This document shows, piece by piece, positions 10,574 to 39,147 of a DNA stretch of 64,000 nucleotides. Below the pieces are notes generated by a model, which made no database searches, was not told the origin of the DNA, and was given only the letters and a program-made list of their open reading frames with translations. The first letter of the stretch is position 1; every line of letters starts with the position of its first letter. This DNA is from Candidatus Woesearchaeota archaeon (GTDB lineage: Archaea; Nanobdellota; Nanobdellia; Woesearchaeales; JACPJR01): NCBI GenBank assembly GCA_016187565.1, contig JACPJR010000014.1:62001-126000 (forward strand). Reading direction: 5' to 3'. The position numbers and the translations under genes were made by a program.

Positions 10574-10942
10574 CTAAGAAGACCTTCTCTTGAAAATGCC
10601 TTTATTGATCTGTTTTGCCCATTGCATGCTTTCCTTTGCAGAAAGACCGAGAACAATACGCTTGTAAGGAGCATTCTGTAATTCAACAGTTAATCCATAC
10701 ATTCCATGTTTAACATACCAAAATTCTTTTCCTTTATCTGTCCAAAATGTTCCTGCCTTCAGAAAAAAAGGAATGTATGTACCAACCCGAAACCATGTCC
10801 AATGTTTCCAAGGAATAGAAGCATCAGCTAAAAGAATACAGTTCCTCGGGATGGTTAATGTGCCTTTTAGAGCAGCTACTTTCTCGAGACCTGCAAAAAC
10901 AATCACGAGCGTATCTTGAGTAAGACGTATCTCCATTCTCAA
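10574..10942 (-). CDS. Hypothetical protein, 122 aa (PH-like fold possible)
   Basis: 122 residues of mostly beta strands ending in one amphipathic helix (SAKESMQWAKQINKGIFKR), an arrangement like bacterial PH-domain proteins. Conserved-looking aromatic/Gly turns (WKHWTWFRVGTYIPFF, GTFWTDKGKEFWYV) also occur in small uncharacterised proteins of bacteria and archaea. There is no signal peptide and no Cys pair. It is transcribed away from repeat copy A, with its promoter between 10943 and 11020. I cannot name a function. Confidence 0.6.
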   Translation of the reverse strand: MRMEIRLTQDTLVIVFAGLEKVAALKGTLTIPRNCILLADASIPWKHWTWFRVGTYIPFFLKAGTFWTDKGKEFWYVKHGMYGLTVELQNAPYKRIVLGLSAKESMQWAKQINKGIFKRRSS

Positions 10943-11020
10943 GCGAGAGTTACCCTTGCTTAAATAATTATGGATAACAATCAGGAAGTATAATAAACGA
11001 TTAGTTTAAACTATTTAGCA

Positions 11021-11382
11021 TTACAGCGGCAATAATGGCGGTGCGACGGTCATTTTGTAACGCAAAATGCCCTACGAGTCACCCCATAAGGGACCCCGAC
11101 TCATCGCACGCCACGCAAACTCATGAAAATCCGTTGGATTTTCAGGATCCTCGAAAACTAAGTTTCCGGGAAACCGGAAATTCAAAGAATTTCCCAGTTC
11201 ACCGAAAATGCCATGCATTTTCGCGTGTTTACCAAAGTTTGATCAATGGGTGTAACATGAAGTTGCACGTCGCGGCCTTCGTGTTGCCTTAATAGCCGCG
11301 CCGAAGAGCTTCATGCTCTTCCTTGCGTGTCAACTGAGCGTAACCAGTTGCGGGGTGTGCGTAGGATTGCTCGCTGAGCAAA
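11021..11382 (+). repeat. Hairpin-mosaic repeat, copy A
   Basis: A non-coding element built from consecutive short hairpins, mostly with 3-nt loops. An outer stem GTGCGA/TCGCAC (11041-11046/11104-11109) encloses hairpins CATTTTG/CAAAATG and GAGTC/GACTC. Then come GAAAATCC/GGATTTTC (11125-11143), GGAAATTC/GAATTTCC (11176-11194), CGAAAATGC/GCATTTTCG (11203-11223), GTGTAAC/GTTGCAC (11250-11268), CGCGGC/GCCGCG (11271-11300), GAAGAGC/GCTCTTC (11303-11321), CAACTG/CAGTTG (11331-11350) and TTGCTC/GAGCAA (11367-11381). Bases 11117-11246 are identical, in reverse complement, to 37605-37734. It ends directly at the TATA element of the next gene. Open frames across it are by-products. Confidence 0.85.
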
Positions 11383-11414
11383 TACTTAAAAAGAACTAAT
11401 GATTTCCCTGATTG

Positions 11415-35839: not shown

Positions 35840-37294
35840 TTAACAGCTCTTTGCCAGTATCCGTTGTTCTTCAATGGCTTTGAGAACCTCTGGCGTTACA
35901 TCTCCTGTTGGATAATTCCCATCAAAACAGGCTGTACAGAAGGCTTTGATTGCCGGATTGCCTGCGCGAGATGCCTTGATCATCCCTTCCATGGTCTGAT
36001 AAAAGAGTGCATCTGCACCAATAATTTTTTTGATCTCTTCAATACTATGATCTCTTGCAATAAACTCTCTCCTTGTTTGCATATCAATACCATAGACGTC
36101 TGGATATCGTATCGGTGGACAGCTTGAAGCAAAGTACACTTTTCTTGCACCAGCATTGCGCACCATTTGAATAATCCGTTTAGAGGTAGTTCCCCGAACA
36201 ATGCTATCATCAACAAGAAGTACTCTTTTTCCTTTGAGTTCAATGGTTACTGGCGTTAGTTTGAACTTGACTGAAACCTCTCTGAGCTCTTGACTGTGCA
36301 TAATGAATGTCCTGCCAATATATCTGTTTTTGAGTAATCCTTCTCGATACTTTACCTTGAGTTTTGCTGCCAGTGCTAATGCGCATGCCCGTGAAGTGTC
36401 TGGTACAGGAACAACAACATCAATAGGAACATTTGCCTTTGCAACGACTTTGGCTAGTTCCTTTCCTAATCGTAATCTTGTTTTGTAGACACTGATTTTG
36501 TCAATGATTGAATCTGGACGAGCGAAATAGACATACTCAAAAATGCATGGCGTTCCCTTATTAGGGCCAACCTGTTTGTGATGGACATTACCTTCTCTAT
36601 CGATAAAAAATGCTTCTCCTGCAGCCACATCCCTGACAATACTGTAACCAAGTGCAGACAAGGCACACGATTCTGAGGCAAACATATAGTTCTCTTTTCC
36701 ATTCACTGTTTTTTTTCCTAAAATCAGGGGTCGAATGCCATGAGGATCGCGGACAGCATAGAGTCCTTTATTTCCGATAAGCCCGACCATCGAATAACTG
36801 CCTTTGACGTTTTGGAAGAGATAGGCAACTGCTTTGTAGAAATTTTGAACTGAGAACTCTTTTTTTGCATGTTCCAGAAGTCCTTCTGCCAGAATATTAA
36901 GGATGGCTTCAGAATCAGAACTGGACTGTAATTGCCTATGGAGTTTGTTGATAAGGAGATCTCGTAACTGTCCATAATTAGTCGAGTTTCCATTATGGGC
37001 AATGGAGATACCGTACGGATGCGTCAGAATAAATGGTTGTGCCTCTTGCGCTGACAGGGCATAACCTGCAGTTGGATAGCGAACATGACCAATACCCATG
37101 GTTCCTTTTAAGTTCTTTAATTTCCGTTCGGTAAATACTTCTTGGACAAGTCCTAGACCTTTCTCTAAATGGAAACAGTCTGTACAGGTGTTAATCCCTG
37201 CTGCATCCTGTCCTCGGTGCTGGAGCATGATTAATCCTGCATACAGTTCAGGAGCAACATTCTCTTGACCAATAATTCCGATAATACCACACAT
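35840..37294 (-). CDS. purF: Amidophosphoribosyltransferase
   Basis: 484 residues. The mature nucleophile Cys2 directly follows Met1 (MCGIIGIIG), with no propeptide. The glutaminase domain contains LQHRGQDAAGI and AHNGNSTN. The phosphoribosyltransferase domain has VVPVPDTSRACALALA and the PRPP loop LLVDDSIVRGTTSKR. The first committed step of purine synthesis. The late Cys residues (AFCTACFDGNYP) fit the Fe-S or zinc-binding C-terminal pattern of the family in part. TATA element about 37333-37342, short leader with GAGGGT ribosome site. It lies between repeat copy B and purD. Confidence 0.96.
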   Translation of the reverse strand: MCGIIGIIGQENVAPELYAGLIMLQHRGQDAAGINTCTDCFHLEKGLGLVQEVFTERKLKNLKGTMGIGHVRYPTAGYALSAQEAQPFILTHPYGISIAHNGNSTNYGQLRDLLINKLHRQLQSSSDSEAILNILAEGLLEHAKKEFSVQNFYKAVAYLFQNVKGSYSMVGLIGNKGLYAVRDPHGIRPLILGKKTVNGKENYMFASESCALSALGYSIVRDVAAGEAFFIDREGNVHHKQVGPNKGTPCIFEYVYFARPDSIIDKISVYKTRLRLGKELAKVVAKANVPIDVVVPVPDTSRACALALAAKLKVKYREGLLKNRYIGRTFIMHSQELREVSVKFKLTPVTIELKGKRVLLVDDSIVRGTTSKRIIQMVRNAGARKVYFASSCPPIRYPDVYGIDMQTRREFIARDHSIEEIKKIIGADALFYQTMEGMIKASRAGNPAIKAFCTACFDGNYPTGDVTPEVLKAIEEQRILAKSC

Positions 37295-37411
37295 CTGACC
37301 CTCGTTTTCTTGTATTTTCTTAGGTTTTCTCGTCTTATAAATAGTGAACGGAGTATATAAAGCTTGTGTATGAAGTGAATACTTGTCTAAACCTGTGAAT
37401 CATAAACTGCA

Positions 37412-37761
37412 CGCCACCACAAGGGCGGCTGACGGATTTGCTCGTTGAGCAAATCCTACGCAACACCCCGGAGGGGGCAAGCCCCGTTGCGTCAGCGCCC
37501 AACTGGTTACGCTCAGTTGACACGCAAGGGAGAGCATGAAACTCTCCGACGCGGCTATACTGGCAGCACGCGGGCCGCGGTGTGTAACTTCAGGTTACAC
37601 CCATTTGATCAAACTTTGGTAAACACGCGAAAATGCATGGCATTTTCGGTGAACTGGGAAATTCTTTGAATTTCCGGTTTCCCGGAAACTTAGTTTTCGA
37701 GGATCCTGAAAATCCAACGGATTTTCATGAGTTTCGTCGCACCGCCTACAGCGGCGCTGTA
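37412..37761 (-). repeat. Hairpin-mosaic repeat, copy B (inverted relative to copy A)
   Basis: A second copy of the element at 11021-11382, in opposite orientation: 37605-37734 is identical to the reverse complement of 11117-11246 (130 nt). Further hairpins are TACAGC/GCTGTA (37747-37761), GTGTAAC/GTTACAC (37582-37600), CGCGGC/GCCGCG (37550-37579), GGAGAG/CTCTCC (37529-37547), CAACTG/CAGTTG (37500-37519), ACGCAAC/GTTGCGT (37458-37492, with an inner G/C-rich stem) and GGATTTGCTC/GAGCAAATCC (37434-37456). Relative to copy A it lacks the 3-way hairpin block near the core and has an extra G/C-rich hairpin. Stem differences between copies are compensated. Lies between purA and the purF promoter. 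Confidence 0.85.
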
Positions 37762-37785
37762 ATCGTAAAAGATTTACTTTGGAGT

Positions 37786-39147
<1,362 letters not shown>

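Follow-up and report, generated by a model that had tools for sequence, protein, structure and literature searches.

The two hairpin clusters of the window (the whole 64,000-nt stretch analysed here, part of a draft genome of 1.94 Mb in 35 contigs) are probably composite copies from an element family that is mobile, structured and non-coding and belongs to one Woesearchaeota-type order. The observation made in the preliminary description was largely right, both clusters being composites of hairpins. The element is small and consists of nested hairpins.

Two inverted composite copies in the window

Copy B lies within a purine gene run, between purA (37786-39129, minus strand) and purF (35840-37294, minus strand), and copy A between 10574-10942 and a gene starting near 11412. 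As had been described, they are inverted copies ∼26 kb apart; 11117-11246 and 37605-37734 are 100% identical over 130 nt, and a second block (11245-11357 and 37493-37605, 113 nt) is 85% identical. When folded as DNA, copy B was superior to its shuffled versions (z = -6.3; 0 of 100 shuffles equally good), as was copy A (z = -6.8). Used as a query on its own genome, copy B returned 34 matching pieces at ∼24 places. An Rfam search of the window gave 0 matches, with no family at the gathering score, and a search of 12 element loci at E ≤ 1 retrieved tRNA only. A likeness of the motif CGCTC...CGCAAGG to the twister-sister ribozyme received no support from an Rfam search at E ≤ 1.

It had also been proposed that copies A and B might recombine as a pair, inverting the intervening 26 kb. 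The 130 nt of perfect inverted identity would favour such an event, which was nevertheless not borne out and appears highly improbable: the order and direction of purA and purF across copy B are the same in the two relatives where both genes were seen to share a contig, genomes G037 and G228 (the relatives compared belong to the same order, none of them being closer), and in the single assembly the flanks of A and B showed neither repeats nor swapped repeats.

Table 1. Features of copies A and B in the window, read in the sense of copy B
Feature	Position	Strand	Evidence
Copy B, composite element between purA and purF	37400-37765	+	Self-genome match; inverted identity to copy A
Left three-way module: closing stem CTGACG/CGTCAG, hairpin 37434-37456, arm 37458-37464/37486-37492	37424-37499	+	Fold; copy comparison
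Conserved core, 30 nt: hairpin CAACTG-GTTACGCT-CAGTTG followed by ACACGCAAGG	37500-37529	+	Order-wide searches; covariation
Hairpin hp2, directly after the core	37529-37547	+	Composite alignment
Hairpin hp3	37550-37579	+	Covaries across the order
Hairpin hp4	37582-37600	+	Covaries across the order
hp5, 5′ part; stem split by the inserted multi-hairpin block	37605-37627	+	Copy comparison
Inserted multi-hairpin block	37628-37734	+	107/107 identical to copy A; absent in the L003 copy
Right three-way module remnant (3′ strand CGTCGCAC, 37735-37742) and right-end hairpin (37747-37761)	37735-37761	+	Copy comparison
Copy A, composite; left module truncated; core after 5′ half of second arm	11017-11398	-	Fold; identity to copy B
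Right three-way module, intact in copy A	11040-11116	-	Fold; copy comparison

The full intergenic form consists of a left three-way module with two hairpin arms, the core and the hairpins that follow it, and a right three-way module whose closing stem is GTGCGACG/CGTCGCAC. Four short copies (L014, L017, L018 and L019) contain the two three-way modules only. L007 and L011 have the core block inside the loop of the second arm of the left module; B, L003, L004 and L006 have it beyond that module, which is then closed. The stem of hp5 is interrupted by the multi-hairpin block in A, B and L004 and partly so in L005, the block being missing from L003 and L006. Several unrelated hairpins occupy one and the same place in the right module, the slot running from GTAGG to CCGTnGCAC (18 slots extracted); 16 left slots were extracted between CTGACG and CTAC/T (19 copies compared overall). 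Of 36 pairs, spread over five hairpins and a closing stem in the alignment of 19 composite sequences, 21 showed double changes. When the flanks of the composites were aligned, some common AT-rich sequence was seen upstream and downstream, with weak similarity at the ends; clean terminal repeats were not found.

A 30-nt core found across one order

A DNA search with copy B yielded matches in 20 of 60 genomes (E ≤ 1e-3, including its own genome), and many of these matches fell on the core. Of the 352 genomes searched in the order, a covariance model built on the core recognised 83 (E ≤ 1e-3), and in a draw of 371 genomes of the phylum, whose out-of-order share is not shown, 44 were positive, all 44 belonging to this same order. 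Scanning the GTDB r220 species genomes for the exact core pattern gave 36 stretches, with titles reading Woesearchaeota, Nanoarchaeia, Nanoarchaeota or plain 'archaeon', which would make the order Woesearchaeales; in viral contigs the exact pattern was found 0 times. Among the matches listed, the core was present (E ≤ 1e-3) 12 times in the genome holding the window and 15 times in each of genomes G040 and G178.

From 178 covariance-model matches (170 loci), drawn among the matches listed and biased towards high scores, 140 non-redundant copies were retained; the redundancy filter removed copies with identical 25-nt surroundings, so near relatives stay among the 140. Pairing in the core stem was kept in 98.7% of cells (88.5% when shuffled), with double changes in five of six pairs. 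The stem cells comprised 773 Watson-Crick, 40 G-U, 5 A-C and 4 other combinations. Since G-U exceeds A-C on the strand read (40 versus 5), the selected form would be a single strand, and the strand as read most likely acts single-stranded, as RNA.

A sister core, CAGCT-TCTTGCTA-AGCTG-GCACGCA, was seen at the same T-loop place in three tRNA-Val introns (L225, L226 and L227) and in L098 and L111. Model R1 was not made for this sister core, which means that the family probably has more members than were counted.

Core copies in tRNA genes

Directly after the start of the tRNA T-loop stand 49 of the 140 copies. In 45 of these 49 the geometry is a full bulge-helix-bulge: TTCR takes part in a helix of 4 bp, the bulge measures 3 nt (AGT or AAT) and the 5-bp T-stem is complete. 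This figure applies to T-loop copies and not to those of the window. When the downstream sequence was shuffled, helix and stem together were obtained in a mean of 2.98 copies, and in 0.12 when the AGT/AAT bulge was included. The four misses were L061, L086 and L130, which lie at contig ends with no readable 3′ side, and L060, which has another bulge. Residue 57, at which the 4-bp helix varies, covaries with its partner (32 A-T, 15 G-C, 1 other). Such geometry is that of archaeal introns, and the T-loop copies would be excised by splicing. Further core sites were the tRNA anticodon loop, the D-loop, the starts of protein genes and intergenic DNA.

After removal of the insert, ARAGORN recognised a tRNA in 58 of the 140 copies and in 0 of 24 composites. 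This removal test was rejected as proof of splicing, being also positive where a direct-repeat copy precedes a whole tRNA. The 5′ and 3′ ends of the introns paired with a mean of -6.1 kcal/mol, compared with -5.0 kcal/mol in swapped pairs, several cases being weak. Gene conversion among tRNA genes could account for the spread of some T-loop introns. At L038, ∼100 nt upstream of the core, there are core-less T-loop introns with a plain stem and the same splice borders, in the same genomes.

Direct repeats and an empty site

In about two dozen copies the sequence preceding the core recurs just after the element; this is often the 5′ part of a tRNA or protein gene, the intact copy of which comes next. 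Direct repeats with a score of at least 13 were present in 24 of 140 copies, those with flanks too short for the test being scored as misses, and in 11 of 405 mismatched pairs (P = 4e-8). Their lengths vary from about 13 to 60. The repeat at L144 is hairpin sequence and not target. At two of the copies with repeats, L058 and L173, element and target form tandem series, in which the upstream target copies are more degraded with distance from the intact gene.

The one clean empty/filled pair found involves two genomes of the same genus, G300 (empty) and G301 (filled). Their left flanks, comprising the leader and the tRNA start, are identical at 87 of 98 positions and their right flanks at 50 of 50. 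The insert in G301 is 86 nt long (core, hairpin and tail) and lies in the D-loop of a tRNA; the target duplication, of 25 bp (31 with its drifted end), restores the tRNA. The anticodon intron of this same tRNA bears the core in G301, and is short and plain in G300. In another genus, which is not that of the window, the orthologous tRNA-Val introns of G108 and G109 are distinguished by a single core hairpin unit that G109 alone has. Copies A and B had no flanking direct repeats, and no empty site was found for them, so their own transposition is deduced from the core they have in common with the other copies.

Hairpins gained, lost and exchanged among copies

Copy B had been described as lacking a GTGCGA-closed three-way block found in copy A and as having two stems of its own. 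The block is indeed present in A (11040-11116) and missing from B. The stems have another explanation: TACAGC/GCTGTA (37747-37761) is B's form of a common right end, present in various forms in all 20 right-end sequences compared, and ACGCAAC/GTTGCGT (37458-37492) belongs to the left module as its second arm and is present in most copies compared. Copy A is without this arm because its left end is truncated, its core following the 5′ half of the arm. Both of B's supposedly private stems are regular family parts that A has lost.

It had further been suggested that whole hairpins are the units of insertion and deletion, leaving their neighbours intact. This held for copies of the same genome as the window, in which slot hairpins are swapped, the core is placed in the loop or after the module, and the multi-hairpin block is all-or-none in most copies, and it held for the G108/G109 intron; it failed at the right end of B and at L012 and L015, where cuts fall near or within stems. 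The deletion in B starts at a module border and ends within the closing stem; what it takes from the right block is the 5′ strand together with the two inner hairpins. As the 3′ strand CGTCGCAC is left behind, this deletion does not respect the outer stem. Indels thus look to prefer hairpin borders, not absolutely, a view drawn from curated events and block identities, which carry no P value, since pairwise alignments of copies gave spurious gaps.

The core and hp2 of copy B match L003 at 48 of 49 positions and A at 46 of 49; for hp3-hp4 the figures are 53/54 for L003 and 43/53 for A. The multi-hairpin block, in contrast, is identical to that of A (107/107). With an L003-like stretch from core to hp4 and an A-identical block, copy B is a chimera of two sub-types. 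These comparisons support the idea that whole hairpins are inserted, lost and swapped among copies.

Nature of the element and of its mover

The composites could be an RNA gene family in their own right: five of their hairpins covary, they are kept in several families, and chimeric copies occur. Hairpins promote slippage, and a family of structured non-coding RNA genes multiplying by ordinary recombination, its hairpin differences due to slippage in palindromes, would share these features. As an account of the whole family this is nevertheless unlikely, given the identical core within tRNA genes and at protein-gene starts with direct repeats, the G300/G301 empty/filled site, and the multiple copies of the core counted above in three genomes among the matches listed.

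Two kinds of mover were considered. REP/BIME-like repeats would be moved by a RAYT-type Y1 (HUH) transposase, with single-strand hairpin units cut and pasted at GTAG tags. By eye, the right slot hairpin stands between GTAG and CGTC, and the left one reads GTAG-hairpin-CGTC on the other strand; GTAG was found at the palindrome foot of the slot hairpins (18 right and 16 left slots), the core hairpin being without it. The genome holding the window has five Y1 matches, and Y1 occurs in 36 of 83 core carriers versus 86 of 269 other genomes, a weak association (P = 0.065). None of the 10 Y1 loci inspected lay between a pair of slot hairpins, element-like fragments being present near two loci of G178. 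Target duplication is not known from Y1 transposition, and this reading is quite unlikely. SINE-like retro-insertion, in which a tailed core RNA is reverse-transcribed into a nicked target with variable target duplications, would agree with the variable direct repeats, the defined 5′ end at the core, the apparent single-strand (RNA) constraint and the A-rich 3′ tail of some copies, e.g. that of G301. It is rendered rather improbable by the distribution of reverse transcriptase, which shows no association with the core (19 of 83 carriers versus 76 of 269 others); G010, a single-contig genome, has five core copies among the matches listed and no reverse transcriptase match. The pooled tails are hardly A-rich either (A at 111 of 308 positions), and the tail was dropped as proof of retrotransposition.

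Y1 genes of ∼170-210 aa (L211, L214-L216, L219 and L220) have a near-identical upstream stretch, GACATACTCCCAAAATAAATCC..., in several families of the order; it is partly masked in L219. The reverse transcriptase matches of the window's own genome are in two separate pieces (G000:C5:50493-51100, L211), ∼1.4 kb downstream of a Y1 match.

A possible mechanism

For a mobile hairpin element, the reading preferred here, the mobile unit would be ∼50-130 nt long, consisting of the 30-nt core and a second hairpin, sometimes with more. Its insertion would copy a variable stretch of the target. Insertions in essential genes may survive if the duplication restores the gene, or if the splicing endonuclease can excise the insert. 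Intergenic insertions would nest within hairpin loops of older copies, producing mosaics such as A and B, which recombination between copies might then shuffle. The moving enzyme would probably act in trans; none was found, neither reverse transcriptase nor Y1 transposase convincingly tracking the element in the 352 genomes of the order. More tentatively, the family may represent an order-wide class of archaeal mobile element, in which a structured, RNA-like hairpin unit of 50-130 nt duplicates a variable stretch of target and also serves as a spliceable tRNA intron; many tRNA introns of these archaea would then be captured hairpin transposons.

Relation to known systems

MITEs are small, non-coding, multi-copy elements that duplicate their target, with terminal inverted repeats and a fixed duplication length. 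The element described here is likewise small, non-coding, multi-copy and target-duplicating; membership was rejected, since it has no clear terminal inverted repeats and repeats of about 13-60 in place of a fixed length. This variation also sets it apart from the products of fixed-stagger transposases. Membership among non-LTR retroelements or SINEs was rejected on the reverse transcriptase and tail counts given above. The palindromic elements of Rickettsia are non-coding units found within and between genes. The present element is also palindromic and non-coding, inside and between genes; unlike them, it has insertions in tRNA genes with splice geometry or a gene-restoring duplication. It resembles archaeal bulge-helix-bulge tRNA introns in its T-loop, anticodon and D-loop positions and in its splice geometry, and differs from them in having as its intron body a conserved repeat that occurs outside tRNAs as well.

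REP/BIME sequences and GTAG- or CGTC-tagged palindromes, as portrayed in the parts of PMC3733652 drawn on here, are also short multi-copy intergenic palindromes that form larger mosaics, and GTAG and CGTC stand beside the slot hairpins; unlike REP/BIME, the present element has an order-wide 30-nt core, sites in tRNA genes and long target duplications, with no dedicated transposase shown. The same parts of that paper mention the Rickettsia elements and describe CGTC repeats apparently without a dedicated transposase. Gain of tRNA introns via a 1.8-kb mobile element with a predicted recombinase gene has been proposed (PMC3293823), and direct repeats near intron borders in general have been reported (PMC11782384). 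A survey of palindromes in bacteria and archaea (PMC12306157) makes no mention of Woesearchaeota in its main text. No description of the element was found in a literature search that mostly covered papers outside subscription.

The finding bears on how archaeal tRNA genes gain introns. One repeat, in one order, occurs as intergenic composites, as target-duplicating insertions and as inserts in T-loops whose splice geometry is intact, and has an empty site in a sister species; these three forms, together with the empty site, open the gain of introns through a mobile hairpin to direct testing. Woesearchaeota are known nearly exclusively from metagenomes, and the family would give them a defined mobile non-coding element.
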